46,800 bases of DNA from contig JAYEJS010000020.1 of NCBI GenBank assembly GCA_034660695.1, forward strand, positions 1-46,800. The letters run 5' to 3'. The notes beneath the pieces were generated by a model, which did not search any database, was not told the DNA's origin, and saw only the letters and a program-made list of their open reading frames with translations. A program made the position numbers and the translations under genes. Within the stretch, counting starts at the first letter, position 1. Every line of letters starts with the position of its first letter. Positions 3,608 to 44,323 of this stretch are shown here, piece after piece. This DNA comes from Candidatus Thermoplasmatota archaeon. GTDB taxonomy: Archaea > Thermoplasmatota > E2 > UBA202 > DSCA01.

Positions 3608-4216
3608 ATGTTGCAAATTTCGGGAACGTCATTGGACGAAAAAGTTTTAGTTATCGCAAATATTACAAAAAGGGATAACATGGGAAGTGTGTTTGTATTT
3701 AAAGTGGCTTTGAAGCATCGAAAGGGGATCTGGCGTCGTATCGAGATTAGAGGCAGCCAGATGCTTAAGGATTTTGATCAAATCATTCGTGAAACATTCA
3801 AGCATGATACAATGGATCATTTGGGCGAATTCTTTAGAGAACAGTGGCCACACGGGGGATTTGGAGAAATTGATCCTTTTGGGGGAGGGAATGGAGCCAG
3901 AAAACGAATAGAGCAACTCGGTTTAACTGAGGGCGATAAGCTGGGATACATTTATGACTTTGGTGACAATATCCAGCATATTGTTACTTTAGAAAAGGTT
4001 ACAGAACCAGAAAGCGGAGTTGAATATCCTCGCATCGTTTCCCAAAACGATCCTAAATATCGCTACTGCGAGACATGCAAAAAGCGAGGAAAGAAGACAA
4101 TTGCTACTTGGATTTGTATCACATGTTCAAATGAGAAGGGAAGAGAAGTGCTTTTATGTGAAGATTGCGTGAGTAAAGAGCACGATGACCACTATGCCGA
4201 GGAGATGGTTTACTGA
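3608..4216 (+). CDS. pRiA4b ORF-3-like protein with C-terminal zinc-binding region
   Basis: A 202-residue protein whose centre matches the plasmid pRiA4b ORF-3 family: KHRKGIWRRIEI, then the signature GYIYDFGDNIQHIVTLE at about residues 114-130. The family is widespread in bacterial and archaeal mobile and chromosomal contexts, and its biochemical role is unknown. The C-terminal 60 residues add cysteine pairs (CETCKKRG, CITCSNEKG, CEDC) and a KEHDDHY histidine stretch, a likely zinc-binding module of B-box or zinc-ribbon flavour. This is a less common fusion. The gene stands alone between divergent tsr3 and the convergent top6A. Its ATG follows GGGTAG. No promoter is clear. Confidence 0.75.
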   Translation: MLQISGTSLDEKVLVIANITKRDNMGSVFVFKVALKHRKGIWRRIEIRGSQMLKDFDQIIRETFKHDTMDHLGEFFREQWPHGGFGEIDPFGGGNGARKRIEQLGLTEGDKLGYIYDFGDNIQHIVTLEKVTEPESGVEYPRIVSQNDPKYRYCETCKKRGKKTIATWICITCSNEKGREVLLCEDCVSKEHDDHYAEEMVY

Positions 4217-16111: not shown

Positions 16112-16759
16112 ATGAATAAGAAAAAAGATGAAGAGAACGAACTTGAAAATAAAGAGCCTGAATTGAAAAATATTAAGGTTACAATGGCAGTAAAAAATTG
16201 GCTTGATGGACATGGGAATAAGGGCGAGACTTACGATCAGATATTGAGACGATATTTACTTCACGAGGGGAAACACAGTAATTTGGAGGATAAAATTGAA
16301 ACGTGTGCAAAGGAAAACAAGATAAACAAATGGAAAATCGGACCGAACAACTACCGTAATATTGCCGGATATATCTACAACATTGGCTATGAAAATGATG
16401 ATGTGGAGGTGACCATCCGAAAAGGTATTATGGGTATGGGTAACAACTGGCTTTGTTACACTGTGAATGGTGTAACATTTGCTAAGATAAGTCCACAGTG
16501 TGATAGTGTTTCCGTAGCATGGCTTGCTGAAATAGAAGGTAAATTAGTTTGGCGAGGTCCTTTCCCACTACGCAAAAGTGATGATTTCGATTTTCGTTTT
16601 TATAATGAATTTTCAGATGATATAAGGAAAGCTTACCGTCTTGCAAAAAGTATAGTAAACGGATTGGGGGATAGATATATTGCTCTTGTTAGTAAGATAA
16701 CAATGATAGAGGAATCCATTAGAAAACTTCAGGGTGAATTAAAAACAATAAAAAGGTGA
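16112..16759 (+). CDS. Unknown protein, first gene of the mre11-rad50 block
   Basis: A 215-residue protein. After a charged 25-residue start comes NIKVTMAVKNWLDGHGNKGETYDQILRRYL, which resembles the short strand-helix-helix module of archaeal VapB-like/DUF7557 proteins. The middle (about 65-165) is a mixed alpha/beta segment with no family I recognise (WLCYTVNGVTFAKISPQCDS). The end is a coiled coil (about 180-215). The track-long TTG start at 16103 is possible, but the ATG at 16112 is preferred. The stop TGA overlaps a GTG of the following gene. It is the first gene after the TTTATATA promoter. A DNA-binding or adaptor role is only a guess. Confidence 0.6.
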   Translation: MNKKKDEENELENKEPELKNIKVTMAVKNWLDGHGNKGETYDQILRRYLLHEGKHSNLEDKIETCAKENKINKWKIGPNNYRNIAGYIYNIGYENDDVEVTIRKGIMGMGNNWLCYTVNGVTFAKISPQCDSVSVAWLAEIEGKLVWRGPFPLRKSDDFDFRFYNEFSDDIRKAYRLAKSIVNGLGDRYIALVSKITMIEESIRKLQGELKTIKR

Positions 16760-16767
16760 AAAGTGAA

Positions 16768-17526
16768 ATGAAGGAAATAACATTAAAGGTTGTTGAAGCC
16801 CCTCCACAAGACGTGAGATCTGGAAGGGTAAGGTTATCTGAAAAGGTAGCAGCAGAACTTGATATATCCTACGGAAGTATTGTTGAAATAGAGGGTAGTA
16901 AAAGAACTGGTGCAGTGGTATGGAGAGCCCACCCGATAGATGAGGGAAAAGGAATAATCAGGATAGACAACTTCACTAGAAAGAACGCTGGAATTGAAAT
17001 AGGGGACAAGGTAATAGTTAGGAAAATAGTTCCCAAAACAGCAAAAAAAGTGGTAATGGCTCCGGCAATTTCTCAGGGGCAGAAAATCCAATTCAGGCAG
17101 GACATAGAACATTTAGTTAAAAGAGGACTGCTGAAGAGGCCCGTGAGTATGGGAGACACAATCGTTATACCCGGCATAGCTTTATTCGGGAATAGTTTAC
17201 CTTTCTCTGTGTGTTATACAAAACCAAGAGGAATTGTAGCTATTACAGGAGAAACAAATGTTGTTGTTAATAAGGAGCCTGTGGAATATCCATTCCAAGT
17301 ATCTGGGAAAGACGAAATTAAGATTTTGGAGAAATTTATCAAGGAAAACCCAAAATTAGATAAAAATGTAATAGTGGCAATACAACAATTAATTCCTATC
17401 ATAAAACGCTTAAAAGAAGTGAGGAAAGATGCAGAAAGAATAAAAAAGGATTCTATTGATTTATGCACCAGAATGGATATGCTATTAGAAACATTAGACT
17501 ATCCGGAGGATGATAAAGATGAATAG
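16768..17526 (+). CDS. Stand-alone Cdc48/VAT N-terminal domain protein without AAA ATPase
   Basis: A 252-residue protein whose first 170 residues align end to end with the N domain of Cdc48/p97/VAT. The double-psi barrel half is marked by VEAPPQDVRSGRVRLSEKVA, GSIVEIEG, GKGIIRIDNFTRKNAGIEIG and DKVIVRKI. The second (CDC48_2) half has KKVVMAPAISQGQKIQF, LLKRPVSMGDTIVIPGIAL and GETNVVV. In VAT the chain would then enter the D1 AAA module. Here it instead ends in about 80 residues of charged helix and no Walker motif exists. N domains bind substrates and cofactors, so this may be an adaptor or a competitor of the real Cdc48. The ATG at 16768 follows GGTGA; a GTG at 16756 overlapping the previous stop is an alternative. 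Confidence 0.85.
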   Translation: MKEITLKVVEAPPQDVRSGRVRLSEKVAAELDISYGSIVEIEGSKRTGAVVWRAHPIDEGKGIIRIDNFTRKNAGIEIGDKVIVRKIVPKTAKKVVMAPAISQGQKIQFRQDIEHLVKRGLLKRPVSMGDTIVIPGIALFGNSLPFSVCYTKPRGIVAITGETNVVVNKEPVEYPFQVSGKDEIKILEKFIKENPKLDKNVIVAIQQLIPIIKRLKEVRKDAERIKKDSIDLCTRMDMLLETLDYPEDDKDE

Positions 17527-22104: not shown

Positions 22105-22551
22105 GTGAAAATGCATAATGGGAGGTTTGTAAAAAATGTATTGGTTGGTTGCACCATCTGCATTCTACTCGGAGGAATTGTTTATGTGATAGCACAGCCA
22201 ATTACAGCAGAAAATATTTCAGGTCCACCATGGTTTATGATATGGAAACCAAATCACTCTCTATATATCGCTAATAGACAGGTTTTGCCCCTTCCGATAA
22301 ATATCTCCATTATAATAGGAAAGATAACATGTAAAGCATCAGCAACATGGAATGGAGATGGGAGCATTAACTATGTAGAATGGAGATTAGACGGTAAAGT
22401 AGTCAAAATATGTAATAAAACAGAAAATTATTCCTATGTATGGGAATGGTATGAAAAAGCAACGGGCTATCATATAGTTGAGGCGACTGCATATTTTGTT
22501 AATGGAAGCGTAGTTTCTGATGAAGAAAAAGTATTGATATATAATCTCTAA
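22105..22551 (+). CDS. Small secreted protein with Ig-like fold
   Basis: A 148-residue exported protein. The N-terminal helix (VLVGCTICILLGGIVYVIA) is a signal peptide or anchor. The rest is beta-rich, with the run KITCKASATWNGDGSINYVEWRLDGK and later YHIVEATAYFVNG, the strand pattern of bacterial Ig-like domains such as those in the kelch/PKD protein at the left end of the window. The frame can start with GTG at 22105 or ATG at 22111; GGGGTGA overlaps this region and does not decide between them. TTTTTATAAATAATG upstream is a likely promoter. The role is unknown. Confidence 0.6.
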   Translation: MKMHNGRFVKNVLVGCTICILLGGIVYVIAQPITAENISGPPWFMIWKPNHSLYIANRQVLPLPINISIIIGKITCKASATWNGDGSINYVEWRLDGKVVKICNKTENYSYVWEWYEKATGYHIVEATAYFVNGSVVSDEEKVLIYNL

Positions 22552-22703
22552 TTCACTCTTCGCTAGTATTAAAACATAGACGACAAACAGGCCAACATTG
22601 AGGACGGATCGTGTTTCTAGTGGTACGAAAATCTATTGGGCCAATGGCTAAATGGCGTAGAGATGGTCACATAAGCAAACTTTAGTCCTCCTTGGGGGTA
22701 AGA
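22552..22703. other. Intergenic region with no recognisable gene
   Basis: This stretch lies between the small secreted-protein gene and the promoter of the propeller gene. Its base composition is more balanced than other gaps, and short open frames run through it on the plus strand, but none has a ribosome binding site or recognisable product. It may be decayed coding sequence. I see no repeat or stable hairpin. Confidence 0.3.
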
Positions 22704-22711
22704 TTTATAAA
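22704..22711 (+). promoter_or_regulatory. TATA box of the amber-interrupted propeller gene
   Basis: TTTATAAA lies in a suitable context, and a start point about 26 bases downstream falls near 22733, five bases before the ATG at 22738. This spacing supports 22738 rather than 22906 as the original translation start, and so places the signal peptide and the propeller in one gene. Confidence 0.55.
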
Positions 22712-22737
22712 GAAAAATGTAATATTATTTTTTTAGG

Positions 22738-24261
22738 ATGATAAAAATACAAAAAATAGGAAGTAAGACATTGGCATGTTTGTCGACAGTGATGCTTTTT
22801 TTGATGCCATTATCAGTAGATAAAGGAAATCTTGAAGAAATCAAAGTATAGGATATTTTCCATGGAAATAATAGTGAGTGGAATAAGACCTTCGGCGGAG
22901 GAGGAATGGACAATGGCTATTCTGTCTGGCAGACCAATGATGGCGGCTACATTATCGGAGGACGTACGGATTCATTTAGTAATGAAACAGATTTTGATAT
23001 GTGGCTTATTAAAACAGATGGGAATGGTAACGAACAATGGAATAAAACCTTTGGTGGGGTAGAGAGGGAAAAATGTCGTTGCGTAAGGCAAACTACCGAT
23101 CATGGATACATTCTGGCAGGATCAAGATACATTATAGAAGAAGATGCGCATGCATGGGTGGTTAAAACCGATAAGAATGGAAGGGAGGAGTGGAATAGAA
23201 CCTATGGAAATTGGAGCAGTGGGAATTGCATTCAGCAAACAAATGATGGTGGCTATATTATTGTAGGAAATGTCTGTGGGCAGAAGTATGAGGATAGCGA
23301 TATTTTGCTTGTGAAAACCGATGAATATGGTAATGAAGAATGGAATAAGACTTTTGGAAGAAATAAATATGAGGGAGGTGCGACGGTTCAGCAGACCGAT
23401 GACGGCGGTTATATAATAGGAGGAGATACTAACTGTCTTGAATGTTACCCTAATGCACTTCTTATAAAAACTGATGAATATGGTAATGAAGAATGGAATA
23501 AGACTTTTGGAGGAACGCTCTCCTCCGTTCAGCAAACCAAGGATAGCGGATATGTTATAGGAGGAAGTATCAGAAAATGGAACAGATGGCTATGCTACAC
23601 TCATCCAGATATCTGGATGATAAAAACAGATTCCATGGGAAATGTGGAATGGGAAAGGAGTTTTGGTACCGGCCGCCATGAGGCGGGGGAATATGCACAA
23701 CAGACCTCAGATGGGGGATTTATAGTTGTAGGGGAAACCTATCACGTGAGGTCATTTGTAGGCTATAATGGTGATGATGAGTTTGACATCTGGTTGATAA
23801 AAATTGATGATAACGGCAATGAAGAGTGGATTAAAAAACTGGGAGAAAAAGAAAACTATGAATATACCTCCGAAGTACATCAAACTTTTGACGGAGCATA
23901 CATCATCGTTGGAGGAATATATCCTTGGGGTACAAGGGACTGTGATGTCTGGCTGATTAAAACAGCGGAGCCAACCATAAAAATAGAGTTAACTGGCAGT
24001 GGTTTGGGTGTATCGGCACTTATCAAAAATACCGGGAAAGAAGATTTACACGACATAAACTGGTCGATTTATGTAGAAGGCATAGTGTTCACTGGTGGAT
24101 ATACGCACGGAGTCATTCCCTTATTGCCCGCGGGAGGTCAAACAACTGTTAGTAGTGGCATCGTGCTTGGTGTTGGCCCAATAACGATTAAAATAACTGC
24201 GGAAGAAGTAGCGTTGATTTTGAATTTCCTCCTACTTGCCTATCTTATGCTGCCCATGTAA
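22738..24261 (+). pseudogene. Secreted seven-bladed propeller gene interrupted by an in-frame TAG
   Basis: Reading from the ATG at 22738, codons 1-37 encode a signal-peptide-like start (TLACLSTVMLFLMPLSV). Codon 38 is TAG (22849-22851), and the same frame then continues open to 24261. Just after the TAG comes EWNKTFGGGG, the first strand of the first blade, so the repeats begin upstream of the only long ORF start (22906). About seven repeats follow, each near 50 residues and built from WNKTFGG, QTNDGGYIIGG and DxWLIKTDxxGNE. A CARDB/Ig-like domain and a hydrophobic end follow (about the last 100 residues). Nonsense mutation, sequencing error or readthrough are all possible. The remainder is intact, so decay, if real, is recent. 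Confidence 0.7.
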
Positions 24262-24330
24262 AGCAGATCCAAACAAACTCTAAATTCACATCTGATAGTA
24301 TAGTTATTGTATATGTACCTTTAATAATGC

Positions 24331-24560
24331 AAAGAGACAAATCTCAAAATCTCTCTCGAAAAACTTATGACTTACCTAATGGATGAAAATGCTTCATATG
24401 AACCAGAGCAGTTTCCCGGACTTATATTTAAAGATGGGAGAGCCAGTTTTCTACTTTTCCATAGCGGAAAGATGATCCTACAGGGGCTAAAACTTTAGAT
24501 GACGCTAAAAAACACCTTAGGACATTTAAAGACAAGATTGAAAAATACAATTTGAAGTAA
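24331..24560 (+). pseudogene. Frameshifted C-terminal half of a TATA-binding protein gene
   Basis: The plus-strand frame at 24340 reads NLKISLEKLMTYL, then SYEPEQFPGLIFK and FLLFHSGKMIL. This is the repeat signature of archaeal TBP (YEPEQFPGL followed by the FxSGK strand). The frame hits TAG at 24496, but one base over (from 24483) it continues GAKTLDDAKKHLRTFKDKIEK and stops at 24558-24560. GAK-x6-A is how TBP repeats continue, so one base is missing near 24481-24483. Only one of the two TBP repeats is present, and no start or promoter for the other is seen. It is a relic of a duplicated or transferred TBP gene; the functional copy must lie elsewhere. Confidence 0.75.
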
Positions 24561-24782
24561 GAAATATAGAAAATGTATGGGATTGTTTAAAGCAACTGCA
24601 AACTATCTATGCTATTTAATCAGGATATTCCGCCGAATATTTTTTAGAAAGGAATTGCCGGATTAACGGGAACGGCTTCATTCAAATTTTAATCAGATGA
24701 TTAGCAAGTAAACTGTGATATAAAAATGCAAATAATGCAAATGATTTTAAGACAGCAAACCATTTATAAACGGTTAAAATGA
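24561..24782. other. Intergenic region after the TBP relic
   Basis: No gene or stable structure is seen. An ATTTATAAACGG box at about 24762-24773 is a likely promoter for the next gene. Part of the region may also be decayed sequence linked to the TBP relic. Confidence 0.4.
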
Positions 24783-25463
24783 ATGACAAGAAAAAAAATA
24801 CCTGTTTTGGGCATGGAGGAAAAGACCTATGGAATGATATGGGGCACGGTAGCGATTGTTTTAGGACTGGTCATACTTCTATTTGTCTTCTCCCAAGCGT
24901 ACGAAATTGTACAGAATCCCTCGGAGAAACTCGATGAATGGGTACCAAAGGAGATAGAAGGCCCAACTGCATCATTTAGTTGGGTATCTCATGACACCTC
25001 TGTTACCTTCAATGATGATTCTAAGGAGGGAGACGGAAAGATAACGAGTTGGCACTGGGATTTTGATGACAGCTCCTCTAGTAATGAGAGAAACCCCCGT
25101 CATGATTATTCCGACTATGGAGAATATACCGTATCTCTAGAAGTTGAGGATGAGAACGGCAAGAGCAGCAGTGTAGATACAATTATGCATTTGGAGGAGG
25201 GTTCCAACAATGGCCATACCGAAGAGGGTTTTCCTTTTGACCTGGGCATTATTGGCAATGTACTCGAAAGGTTTGTCATTGTAGGTCTTTTGACAGGTCT
25301 CTTTGCTGTTTTGGTCATGATTGGTGGGAGAATCACCATGGCCGGTGTTCATCTCCTGAGACCAATGCCAAAGACCTTCAAAGTTAAAGTGAAACCCAGG
25401 GATATGGAGGTTGAGATTCCGAGCAAACAGATAGAAGAAAATCAACCAGAAAAACAAACATAA
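24783..25463 (+). CDS. Two-helix membrane protein with a PKD ectodomain
   Basis: A 226-residue protein. A membrane helix at about residues 17-38 (IWGTVAIVLGLVILLFVF) leads to one PKD domain at about 58-140 with the core SWHWDFDDSSSSNERNPRHDY, where the usual FGDG is FDDS. A second membrane helix at about 162-185 is followed by a 40-residue charged cytoplasmic tail (FKVKVKPRDMEVEIPSKQ). Both ends are therefore inside and the PKD domain outside. The binding partner is unknown. The ATG at 24783 is the in-frame choice; an overlapping ATG at 24779 is in another frame. An ATTTATAAA box lies a short way upstream, so the leader is short. Confidence 0.75.
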   Translation: MTRKKIPVLGMEEKTYGMIWGTVAIVLGLVILLFVFSQAYEIVQNPSEKLDEWVPKEIEGPTASFSWVSHDTSVTFNDDSKEGDGKITSWHWDFDDSSSSNERNPRHDYSDYGEYTVSLEVEDENGKSSSVDTIMHLEEGSNNGHTEEGFPFDLGIIGNVLERFVIVGLLTGLFAVLVMIGGRITMAGVHLLRPMPKTFKVKVKPRDMEVEIPSKQIEENQPEKQT

Positions 25464-40278: not shown

Positions 40279-40321
40279 TAGTTATGGATTGTTTCACCAT
40301 TCATATTCTTTTCGTGATAGA

Positions 40322-40331
40322 TTTTTATATG
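40322..40331 (+). promoter_or_regulatory. TATA box of the HPS-RraA gene
   Basis: TTTTTATATG stands about 26 bases before the ATG at 40350, the archaeal spacing for a leaderless transcript. It overlaps the in-frame ATG at 40329, which argues against that longer start. Confidence 0.6.
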
Positions 40332-40349
40332 CCCGCTGAATTAAAAGCC

Positions 40350-41633
40350 ATGAAACCCGTTTTGCAGGTAGCATTGGATTTGATAAATGCTCATCGTGCC
40401 ATTCAGATAGCGAATGAAGCCGTTGCGGGTGGGGCAGACTGGCTGGAGGCAGGCACGCCTCTAATAAAATCCGAAGGGATGGATGCTATACGTCAATTAA
40501 AAAAATTTGGCAAAAAAATCGTGGCTGACATGAAGACCATGGATGTTGGGGCTGTTGAAGCGGAGGTGGCATCAAAGGCTGGGGCTGATGTAGTCTGTAT
40601 ACTTGGCCTGGCAAGCGATGAGACGTTGATGGAAGCCATAAAGGCTGCCCACAGGTACGGGGCGGAAATAATGGTTGATTTAATGGGCGTGGAAGATGCT
40701 GCAGAAAGGGCGATGGCGGTAGAAAAAATGGGGGCGGATTATATCTGCGTCCATGTTTCAATAGATGACCAGATGGCAGGTATGGAGCCATTCGAGGGTA
40801 TAAAGCAAGTTGCGGAAAGCTGTAATCTGCCGGTAGCTGCTGCCGGCGGGATAAATAGTGAGAGCGCCCATATCGCAGTCGAAAATGGTGCGAGCATTGT
40901 GATTGTAGGGGGTGCAATTACGAAGGCGGCTAATGTGACTGAAGCGACGATGAAGATAAAAGGGGCTATTGATAGCGGCAGGGCCATAAAAACGGCTTTG
41001 TTCAAGAAATACGGTAAAGAAAATCTGCGGGAGGCGTTCAGCAAAGTTTCAACGTGCAATATCTGTGATGCCATGCATAATAAAGGTGCGATGCGGGATA
41101 TTTTTCCGCTAAAAAAAGGTTATCACATGGTCGGAAAAGCATTGACGGTAAAGACAATAGACGGTGACTGGGCAAAAGTGGTGGAAGCCATCGATGCTGC
41201 TGATGAAGGAGGCATCATTGTCGTGCAGGCGGGCGAGGGCCGCAGGGCGGTATGGGGTGAGTTAGCCACTTGGAGCAGCGTGAAAAATAGGATAGGGGGG
41301 ATTGTCATAGACGGGGCTGTTAGAGATATTCACGAAATTATGAAGAACGACATTCCCGTTTATACAAAAAAGATTGTTCCAGAGGCAGGTGAGCCCGAGG
41401 GATACGGAGAAATAGGGAGTGAAATAATTTGTGGCGGGCAGACTGTCAGGACTGGGGACTGGATAGTTGGGGACGACAGCGGTGTTGTTATTGTCCAAAA
41501 AGAAAGGGCGCAGGAGATAGCAAACCGTGCCCTCAATGTTCACGAAAGGGAAAATAGAATAAGGGAGGAAATAAAAAGAGGCAGCTCGCTGGGAAAAGTT
41601 CTGGAACTCAAAAAATGGGATAAAGTGAGATAG
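40350..41633 (+). CDS. Hexulose-6-phosphate synthase fused to an RraA-like domain
   Basis: A 427-residue fusion. The first 210 residues are 3-hexulose-6-phosphate synthase of the OMP decarboxylase fold: MKPVLQVALDL, GADWLEAGTPLIKSEG, the catalytic DMKTMD, and the phosphate site AAAGGINSE plus IVIVGGAIT. The second half (about 215-425) is an RraA/demethylmenaquinone methyltransferase-like domain with VWGELATWSS and GGIVIDGAVRD. HPS joins ribulose 5-phosphate and formaldehyde, or runs in reverse to make ribulose 5-phosphate in archaea without the oxidative pentose pathway. The RraA-like half probably is an aldolase or decarboxylase. The ATG at 40350 is selected from the TATA spacing; the longer frame starts at 40284. 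Confidence 0.92.
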   Translation: MKPVLQVALDLINAHRAIQIANEAVAGGADWLEAGTPLIKSEGMDAIRQLKKFGKKIVADMKTMDVGAVEAEVASKAGADVVCILGLASDETLMEAIKAAHRYGAEIMVDLMGVEDAAERAMAVEKMGADYICVHVSIDDQMAGMEPFEGIKQVAESCNLPVAAAGGINSESAHIAVENGASIVIVGGAITKAANVTEATMKIKGAIDSGRAIKTALFKKYGKENLREAFSKVSTCNICDAMHNKGAMRDIFPLKKGYHMVGKALTVKTIDGDWAKVVEAIDAADEGGIIVVQAGEGRRAVWGELATWSSVKNRIGGIVIDGAVRDIHEIMKNDIPVYTKKIVPEAGEPEGYGEIGSEIICGGQTVRTGDWIVGDDSGVVIVQKERAQEIANRALNVHERENRIREEIKRGSSLGKVLELKKWDKVR

Positions 41634-41923: not shown

Positions 41924-44323
41924 ATGAAAGCCAGATTTCTAGCAATTGTGATAATCGCTTTTTTCGTTATTCCAAACTCAGATGCGTCTGATCATACTTC
42001 CGTAAATGTTGTCTCGCAGGAGTTTGCATCAGTGAATGAATATTTCTGTGTAAATATCTCTATCTATCCAACCACATCCGTTGGAGGTGCTCAGTGTGAC
42101 GTTTTATTCGATTCTTCTATCTTGGAAGCACAGAATGTTGGTAATGGCGGGATGTTTGAGGAATGGTGGAACATGAGCCTTGAAATAGATAACATAAATG
42201 GAACAATAAAAAATATTGTGGCGTTTAATTTTGGCGGGAATGGAACATCTTCTCCTGAAATTTTTGCCATCATCACATTTAAAGCAAAAGCATTGGGAAC
42301 ATCATACCTGAATCTAACCAATGTGATTGTGTCTGATGAATATGGGGAAGCGATTCCTTTTACAATTTCAAATGGCAGTGTTACAGTCGCAAACGATACA
42401 ATACCACCTTCATTGTCCTATTACCTCAATCCTTCCTTACCAGACGGAGACAATGGTTGGTACATAAATAATGTCGAAGTTACACTTACAGCGTATGATG
42501 AGCATGATATTTCAGATATGAAATATAGAGTAGACAACGGCAACTGGCAGGGTTATTTCTCACCATTTAATATTACAGATAATGGAGAGCACGTTATAGC
42601 CTTCCATGCAATAGATAGCTTAGGAATCAGCAATTCCACATCCTTCACATTTAAGATAGATAAAACAAGTCCTTCCCTTTTGCACAACCTTGCAGGAACA
42701 GAAGGAAACAACGGATGGTATACAGGCAATGTTGAAGTAACGTTGACAGCAACAGATTCAATATCCGGAGTAAATGTTACAAAGTACAGGGGAGATAGTG
42801 GAGCATGGCAGGTGTACAACACACCATTCACTCTTTCATCAAACGGCAATTACCAGGTGGACTACTATTCCATTGACAATGCAGGAAATAATGCATCTGG
42901 AATGCCTTTCTCACTCAAAATAGATAAAACCAAACCATCGTCATCGTCATCTCTTTCAGGAACAAAAGAAGGAGGCGTATATAAAACAAGTGTTACCGTA
43001 TCTATTTCAAGAAATGATGCAACATCGGGCATTGCATATACGAAATACCGCATCAATGGAGGAGCATGGACAACGTACAGCAATCCTTTCACGTTAACCC
43101 AAGATGACACGTATACCGTTGATTATTACTCCGTTGATAATGCTGGCAATACGGAAACAACAAAGACAACGACATTCGAGATACTTAAAAACCGACCGCC
43201 GGTAGCATCGTTTACTTACACCCCTCTAAATCCAATTGAAGGGCAGACTATATTTTTTGATGCCTCTTCTTCGTATGACCCCGACGGAAGCATTGCCTCG
43301 TATTCTTGGAATTTCGGGGATGGTTCCGGCAGCGGGAAAAATGTGCAGCATTCGTATCCAGCAGGCGGTTCATATACTGTTACATTAACAGTTACCGACA
43401 ACGACGGAGCAACTACATACGTACAAAAAAATCTTAAAGTAGGTACAGAAAAAAAATTGCCCGTTGCCAATTTTAGTTATATGCCTTTACATCCGACAGT
43501 ATCCAGTATCCTTCAGTTTACCGATTTATCATATGATACAGATGGCACAATAACAAACTATATATGGGATTTTGGAGATGGCAATATCAGTTATGAAAAA
43601 AACCCGACCCATACATATAATAAAGATGGTACGTACATAGTCGCTCTGGCCGTTACTGATGACGATGGAGCAACCGGCAACATTTCAAAAACCATAGAAA
43701 TTTTACCGTCGCTTCCCGACTTGATTTTGGAAGATGTGAAATCTTCTATCTCGAAAAATGGAAATGCCAAAGTCACTGTAACAATAAAAAATGGTGGGAG
43801 CGAAGATGCAAGAAGTTTTTCTTGTACCCTTACAGTGGACGGAGAACTCTATAACCCAGAGTTTATTGACAGTCTCCGTCCAGGTGGCGAGATAAATGTA
43901 TTTTTTTATCCTACTCTGTCAAAAGGGGCACATTTGCTTAATACTTCAGTTGATCCTGGCGACATTGTGGAAGAAAGCAATGAAAGTAATAATTATAAGA
44001 CTTATTCCATATTTGTTTCATCTCCATCTCCCTGGAAAATTGATTGGAAAGTTGCCGCGCTGATTGGTATTCTTGTAATAGGATTGGTTGCCGTTTTGTT
44101 GTCGAATAAAAAGAAAAAAATTCAAGGGACAGAGAAAGACAACAAAAAGGTTTTGGTAGAGCCGGAGGAGGAAGTGAACAGATGTTTTGTCTGCCTGGGG
44201 AAAATAAAGCAGAGTTCATCGTTCACAAAATGTGATTGCGGTGCCGTTTTTCATAAAACATGTGCAGAGCGCATAGAAAAATGCCCAAATTGCGGAAAGG
44301 AACTGAGAGAGAAAACTACTTAA
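41924..44323 (+). CDS. Cohesin / Ig-like / PKD / CARDB membrane protein with cytoplasmic RING-like finger
   Basis: A 799-residue type I membrane protein. The signal peptide is residues 1-20. Residues about 24-155 form a cohesin-like domain (GGAQCDVLFDSSILEAQNV; FAIITFKAKALGTSYLNLTN). Three Ig-like repeats follow (about 160-425; NNGWYTGNVEVTLTATDSIS; YSVDNAGN), then two PKD domains (about 427-600) and a CARDB domain (about 605-700; KVTVTIKNGGSEDA). A membrane helix lies at about 709-728, followed by KKKKK. The cytoplasmic end carries eight ligands: Cys754, Cys757, Cys770, Cys772, His777, Cys780, Cys787 and Cys790, a C-x2-C-x12-C-x-C-x4-H-x2-C-x6-C-x2-C RING-like finger. Extracellular recognition may thus be linked to an inner binding module. 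Confidence 0.88.
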   Translation: MKARFLAIVIIAFFVIPNSDASDHTSVNVVSQEFASVNEYFCVNISIYPTTSVGGAQCDVLFDSSILEAQNVGNGGMFEEWWNMSLEIDNINGTIKNIVAFNFGGNGTSSPEIFAIITFKAKALGTSYLNLTNVIVSDEYGEAIPFTISNGSVTVANDTIPPSLSYYLNPSLPDGDNGWYINNVEVTLTAYDEHDISDMKYRVDNGNWQGYFSPFNITDNGEHVIAFHAIDSLGISNSTSFTFKIDKTSPSLLHNLAGTEGNNGWYTGNVEVTLTATDSISGVNVTKYRGDSGAWQVYNTPFTLSSNGNYQVDYYSIDNAGNNASGMPFSLKIDKTKPSSSSSLSGTKEGGVYKTSVTVSISRNDATSGIAYTKYRINGGAWTTYSNPFTLTQDDTYTVDYYSVDNAGNTETTKTTTFEILKNRPPVASFTYTPLNPIEGQTIFFDASSSYDPDGSIASYSWNFGDGSGSGKNVQHSYPAGGSYTVTLTVTDNDGATTYVQKNLKVGTEKKLPVANFSYMPLHPTVSSILQFTDLSYDTDGTITNYIWDFGDGNISYEKNPTHTYNKDGTYIVALAVTDDDGATGNISKTIEILPSLPDLILEDVKSSISKNGNAKVTVTIKNGGSEDARSFSCTLTVDGELYNPEFIDSLRPGGEINVFFYPTLSKGAHLLNTSVDPGDIVEESNESNNYKTYSIFVSSPSPWKIDWKVAALIGILVIGLVAVLLSNKKKKIQGTEKDNKKVLVEPEEEVNRCFVCLGKIKQSSSFTKCDCGAVFHKTCAERIEKCPNCGKELREKTT

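Follow-up and report, generated by a model that had tools for sequence, protein, structure and literature searches.

At positions 24,334 to 24,560 (forward strand) of the 46,800-nucleotide stretch of DNA analysed here as a whole and referred to below as the window (contig C20 of a 1.63 Mb genome that is 99.6% complete and assembled in 164 contigs), one lobe of a TATA-binding protein (TBP) is spread over two reading frames. This raises the question of whether the locus is a functional gene, a gene spoiled by a technical error or a gene fossil. Codons of frame 1, read from position 24,328, yield CKETNLKISLEKLMTYLMDENASYEPEQFPGLIFKDGRASFLLFHSGKMI, and the part of the lobe encoded there (24,334–24,477) comprises helix H1, the YEPEQFPGL strand and the LLFHSGK strand. 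The frame breaks at 24,478–24,479, which frameshift-aware alignment treats as a two-base “codon”, so that the lobe is net one base short, the exact base being ambiguous. The TGAK turn and the last helix follow at 24,480–24,560 in a second frame, one base behind the first (TGAKTLDDAKKHLRTFKDKIEKYNLK), which terminates at a TAA codon (24,558–24,560). The initial annotation had described this division from the letters alone, with YEPEQFPGL and the HSGK strand in one frame, GAK and a helix in the next, and one base missing near 24,481–24,483. Translation bears out both the frames and the deficit, which lies two to five bases from the place proposed.

No in-frame start codon precedes helix H1, the first ATG (24,367) being located inside that helix. 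Strand S1 is not recognisable in the remnant, and at the place where it would be expected there are two consecutive in-frame TAA codons (24,322–24,327). Compared to ordinary lobes, two residues are missing from the loop that follows LIF; since certain divergent TBP-like lobes that are intact have a similar two-residue deletion, this is not necessarily a mark of decay. A TBP lobe needs a pair of DNA-intercalating phenylalanines (PMC4230888). Phenylalanines are present both in QFPGL and in LLF-SGK of the remnant, and these two may be that pair. On the same strand, the remnant is preceded by a gene for a repetitive surface-type protein (22,906–24,261), with a weak CARDB-like match of 16.9 bits that is below the cut-off of 22.7, and followed by a gene for a PKD domain protein (24,783–25,463; 60.1 bits), in which membrane helices can be seen by eye.

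In a six-frame search of the window's own genome, the TBP profile PF00352 detected the unaided remnant with 43.2 bits (E 4.4e-11; curated cut-off 22.9). The two frames joined with an X, whose similarity to TBP the initial annotation had named as the point on which its identification should stand or fall, scored 60.1 bits (E 1.9e-16) over profile positions 15–85 of 85. The solved chains that scored best against the remnant, 1mp9_A and 2z8u_A, are both named TATA-binding proteins, presumably archaeal ones. Frameshift-aware alignment to TBP, likewise proposed at the outset, gave 113.9 half-bits with a matrix built from 37 C-terminal (C) lobes, compared to at most 56.4 in 60 simulated order-1 Markov sequences and 24.2 for the reverse strand of the remnant. 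A matrix of 38 N-terminal (N) lobes gave 147.9 half-bits, the Markov null belonging to the C-lobe matrix alone. Chance is excluded as the source of the likeness to TBP.

As had been noted initially, one TBP repeat is left of two. An HMM of 87 lobes, run in six frames with E values up to 10, found no second lobe in the window, and when three TBPs out of the five in the genome served as tblastn queries, both of their lobes landed on the remnant stretch alone. As can be seen, the remnant keeps the lobe core of archaeal two-lobe TBPs (PF00352), from H1 to the last helix and with the QFPGL and LLF-SGK strands; unlike them, it consists of one lobe with no start, no recognisable S1 and a broken frame. 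It passes the curated cut-off for family membership but has neither two lobes nor an open reading frame that is complete from the start codon onwards. What is found instead is the combination by which a TBP pseudogene is recognised, namely homology together with disabling changes: a frameshift, a lost 5′ end and a lost lobe.

The reading that we prefer, with a probability of roughly 0.87, is that a TBP paralogue has left a dead fragment here, i.e., a pseudogene. An ancestral gene with two lobes, gained by the lineage or arisen in it by duplication, would have become dispensable as a paralogue; one lobe would have been lost altogether, and the other would have been stripped of its first strand, with the start lost as well. 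Freed from selection, the gene would then have acquired the small frameshifting deletion and the loop deletion. The two-lobe ancestor, the order of losses and the absence of function or expression are all inferred from sequence, as is our conclusion that the remnant probably makes no working protein. As such, the remnant is an ordinary gene fossil, a known kind of thing. The proposal of the initial annotation that a duplicated TBP decayed here stands as the best reading in a genome with several TBP genes, but the copy from which the remnant derives cannot be named because identity to the genome's own TBP lobes is low. It amounts to 29.6–39.7% over 71–73 positions for nine of the ten lobes (the tenth, located behind an in-frame TAG, was left out) and to 44–45% at best in short BLAST segments. 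The suggested comparison with the genome's TBPs thus established homologous lobes without singling out a parent.

Thirteen residues separate helix H1 from the conserved Y of the remnant (counted by eye in the alignment), as in ordinary C lobes, compared to 11 in ordinary N lobes, and the stop codon is at the end of the lobe, also as in C lobes. In a first tree of lobes the remnant grouped with the C lobe of a divergent paralogue, L068 (support 0.82), and next with that of L066 (0.74); in a tree with more sequences it branched off basally on the side of the C lobes (0.76). Its tip is long and isolated (1.04 versus a median of 0.05), which would suit relaxed evolution. Profiles of divergent C, ordinary N, ordinary C and divergent N lobes scored 63.2, 60.8, 58.5 and 50.0 bits, respectively; in this profile set the divergent class was defined by total score alone and took in three ordinary TBPs that are truncated or interrupted by a stop (L004, L050 and L116), and L066 and a few other divergent TBPs were counted as ordinary. 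Overall, the lobe signals are contradictory: helix length, stop and tree suggest a C lobe, whereas the N-lobe matrix fits better. Placing the remnant firmly in one lobe class, or among the divergent TBP-like paralogues, was considered and dropped, the profile scores not being decisive.

A wider search retrieved matches to the remnant at E ≤ 1e-12 in 38 of 389 genomes of the phylum, the window's own included; the 389 are an even sample of a larger group and contain members of the order. The best match outside the window's own genome had an E value of 1.2e-14, and identities were 41–52%. One of these matches is a 98-residue fragment at a contig edge (G085), and the others are in open frames of 167–300 residues. 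No orthologue of the remnant was recognisable in these 389 genomes or in 22 genomes of the order, no match rising above the general level of TBP lobes.

The initial annotation had also suggested that TBP was brought in by an element together with the neighbouring surface genes. We consider delivery by a mobile element or virus, followed by decay, unlikely. TBPs do occur on plasmids and in viruses of haloarchaea: the remnant matches 66 of 72,556 plasmid records and 3 of 50,697 phage records, the latter representing two viruses. However, the identities (39–48% in the 8 of the 66 plasmid matches listed, 40–41% for the phages) are no better than those to chromosomal TBPs, and a scan of viral contigs with the remnant, sensitive to close relatives only, gave no match. 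Pfam families of transposases, integrases or recombinases were found neither in the 33 of the 39 window ORFs of at least 150 residues that were scanned (the remaining six are antisense to scanned genes) nor in a 148-residue ORF at 22,105. A repeat search around the remnant revealed one short palindrome and one 11-nucleotide direct repeat, the latter within chance expectation, since a repeat of this length was reached in 77 of 500 shuffles and, in the actual sequence of the window, in 29 of 154 stretches. When the genome was searched at the DNA level with the region 22,552–25,463, what matched outside the window was mainly the surface-gene part, along with short weak matches. Thus, the Pfam, repeat and plasmid and virus comparisons lend the delivery proposal no positive support.

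Speaking for some form of acquisition, three genes at 22,105–25,463 have no homologue in the corresponding flanks of four relatives (G001, G002, G005 and G022), and together they may possibly form a lineage-specific block. MRE11-RAD50 is kept in G001 and G002 and helicase-EamA in G002; the long ORF upstream of the G002 helicase is a different one and runs on the opposite strand. As to an intact copy of TBP at this site in relatives, where the initial annotation had proposed to look, the flanks read in the four genomes contain no TBP match, but none of their contigs spans the gap from RAD50 to the helicase. A contig search with RAD50 led to Thermoplasmata archaeon AUK021, the nearest named relative, in which RAD50 is 66% identical and the contig stops 248 bases past that gene; four further matches were distant and were set aside. 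In G021, which is more distant, a single contig holds RAD50 and, about 7 kb away, the best helicase match (43% identity, opposite strand); the two TBP lobe matches of this genome come from a different contig.

One can also ask whether the remnant ever had two lobes. It appears rather improbable that it stems from a stand-alone single-lobe TBP gene, as a decayed branch of a wider archaeal set of such genes. An intact single-lobe family of about 101–103 residues is encoded in two genera of one family, at L167:1242–1547 (+) in G033 and at L166:4748–5071 (−) in G051. The two proteins are 76% identical (93 codons, dN 0.14, dS 1.67, the latter near saturation) and are apparently under purifying selection, judging from these rates; the G033 protein matches PF00352 with an E value of 9.8e-17. 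Like the remnant, they have one lobe, a similar helix length and a stop right at the lobe end; unlike the remnant, they have an open frame with S1 that is conserved across two genera, and the remnant is no evident orthologue of theirs. The family profile is present in 2 of 80 genomes of the class, and the window's genome is empty with both the profile (E 1e-13) and the G033 protein (E 1e-9). The remnant scores 50–63 bits against profiles of ordinary and divergent two-lobe TBPs. In G033 the single-lobe gene adjoins type III restriction and methyltransferase genes, and in G051 it adjoins BrxC and BrxL; if the remnant does stem from a single-lobe gene, this family beside BREX and type III restriction would be a living example of that wider set.

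A further open single-lobe frame, L113:2427–2750 (+), is found in the single-contig genome G039. Its start is N-lobe-like and its end C-lobe-like, as if two lobes had recombined, and a gene that looks TFB-like by eye starts about 0.7 kb downstream. Other single-lobe candidates were dropped, L147, L168 and L169 because they are cut by contig ends and L114 because it is partly masked. In the literature searched, we found no description of a single-repeat archaeal TBP. One study counts as many N lobes as C lobes in its set of TBPs from archaea and eukaryotes and describes the single TBP lobe for bacteria (Nat Commun 2020, PMC7221094). TBPs in conflict operons have already been named, for the TOTE and TALON systems (PMC12458937), and TBP-like domains fused to RNases are described in another work (PMC3710099); the main texts of PMC4158269 and PMC12839542 mention neither TBP nor TATA. 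On plasmids of Natronomonas, Halorientalis and Halobacterium (L197, L198 and L199/L201), a two-lobe TBP gene is the last in a row of methyltransferase, helicase and TBP genes that overlap by 4–8 bases. The best PADLOC matches on the Halobacterium plasmid are BrxHII for the helicase (scanned in Halobacterium only) and DrmMI for the methyltransferase. A fourth plasmid examined, from Haladaptatus, has no such row.

If the frame break were an assembly or sequencing error in a working single-lobe TBP gene, a single small indel in a fragmented assembly of 164 contigs would account for it, and open single-lobe frames are known in the class, in G033, G051 and G039. Yet one slip would restore neither S1 nor the start, the two TAA codons stand where S1 should be, and the remnant has no evident orthologue in the G033/G051 family, the profile of which is silent in this genome at E 1e-13. 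A single sequencing slip is therefore insufficient, as S1 and the start are missing, the other lobe is absent and the loop lacks two residues, and we regard this explanation as very unlikely. Programmed −1 frameshifting to yield a short TBP-lobe protein is more improbable still: the protein made by a shift after ATC (24,475–24,477) would have the correct length at the turn, but no classical slippery heptamer is apparent by eye at the junction, the start and S1 would still be missing, and the same arrangement is found in no orthologue among the 22 genomes of the order and the 389 of the phylum.

The preferred reading, a decayed TBP paralogue, leads to the other TBP genes of this genome. PF00352 has 11 matches in it, which correspond to the remnant and five two-lobe genes; C79 carries two of these genes, and C31, C59 and C73 carry one each. 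Four of the five genes are intact; the fifth, locus L009 on C79 (2,798–3,346, reverse strand), is interrupted in frame near 2,957–2,959, where codon 130 of its 182 codons is a TAG. A tree of 31 TBPs groups the TAG-bearing protein with those of two relatives (G001:C78, support 0.53; G002:C91, 0.84), and these group with the ordinary TBPs of the neighbouring family f2 (0.86); the proteins encoded on C31, C59 and C73 and the other one on C79 (C79a) belong to separate, paralogue clades. The interrupted gene is thus, by its place in the tree, orthologous to the ordinary TBP of the order, and its branch is longer than those of the two relatives (0.209 versus 0.082 and 0.067). Pyrrolysine read-through of the TAG was considered and, on the evidence of a genome search, rejected: the best hit to the PylS C-terminal family scored 35.1 bits, below the cut-off of 178.15. 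The TAG reflects either ongoing loss of the ancestral TBP or an error in the assembly; if it is real, the lineage may be handing basal promoter recognition over from the ancestral TBP to its paralogues.

In family f2, 14 of 17 genomes have just two lobe matches, i.e., one gene (cut by a contig end in G019). Three relatives from the window's own family have 6, 8 and 2 lobe matches (the last in a genome that is 70% complete), compared to 11 in the window's genome. Since there are several paralogues here and mostly a single TBP gene in f2, the window's lineage appears, from these counts, to gain and lose TBP genes. The remnant adds to this picture of TBP turnover in a Thermoplasmata lineage, which comprises paralogues, a deep remnant and a stop in the ordinary TBP. 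Expansion of TBP families is also reported for haloarchaea, where the N-terminal domain of tbpC is without the DNA-intercalating phenylalanine pair (PMC4230888). The likeness lies in lineage-specific TBP copies with features of one lobe lost; the difference is that tbpC is described as a two-domain gene (PMC4230888), whereas the frame of the remnant itself is destroyed.

Elsewhere in the order, a TBP gene at L110:2186–2705 (+) (G005:C41) is found in two frames, split between the lobes. Divergent TBP-like paralogues of about 183–220 residues are encoded at L182–L189, L192 and similar loci of the class, and in several genomes, e.g., at G033:C45, such a paralogue directly adjoins the ordinary TBP.

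Several other forward-strand genes of the window were recorded in passing. The gene at 41,924–44,323 encodes a 799-residue surface protein with PKD and CARDB domains, the end of which, past a likely membrane helix (by eye), is RING-finger-like (zf-RING_2, 20.0 bits, below the cut-off of 27.3). A 256-residue protein (16,756–17,526) has both CDC48 N-terminal domains, and no ATPase domain was found in it. The gene at 40,284–41,633 specifies a 449-residue fusion of an OMP decarboxylase/HUMPS-family domain with an RraA-like domain. Finally, a 202-residue protein (3,608–4,216) matches pRiA4b ORF-3 (68.3 bits), and its end also scores 28.8 bits (cut-off 23.8) against SNAPC3, which in eukaryotes is a subunit of a factor for snRNA promoters.
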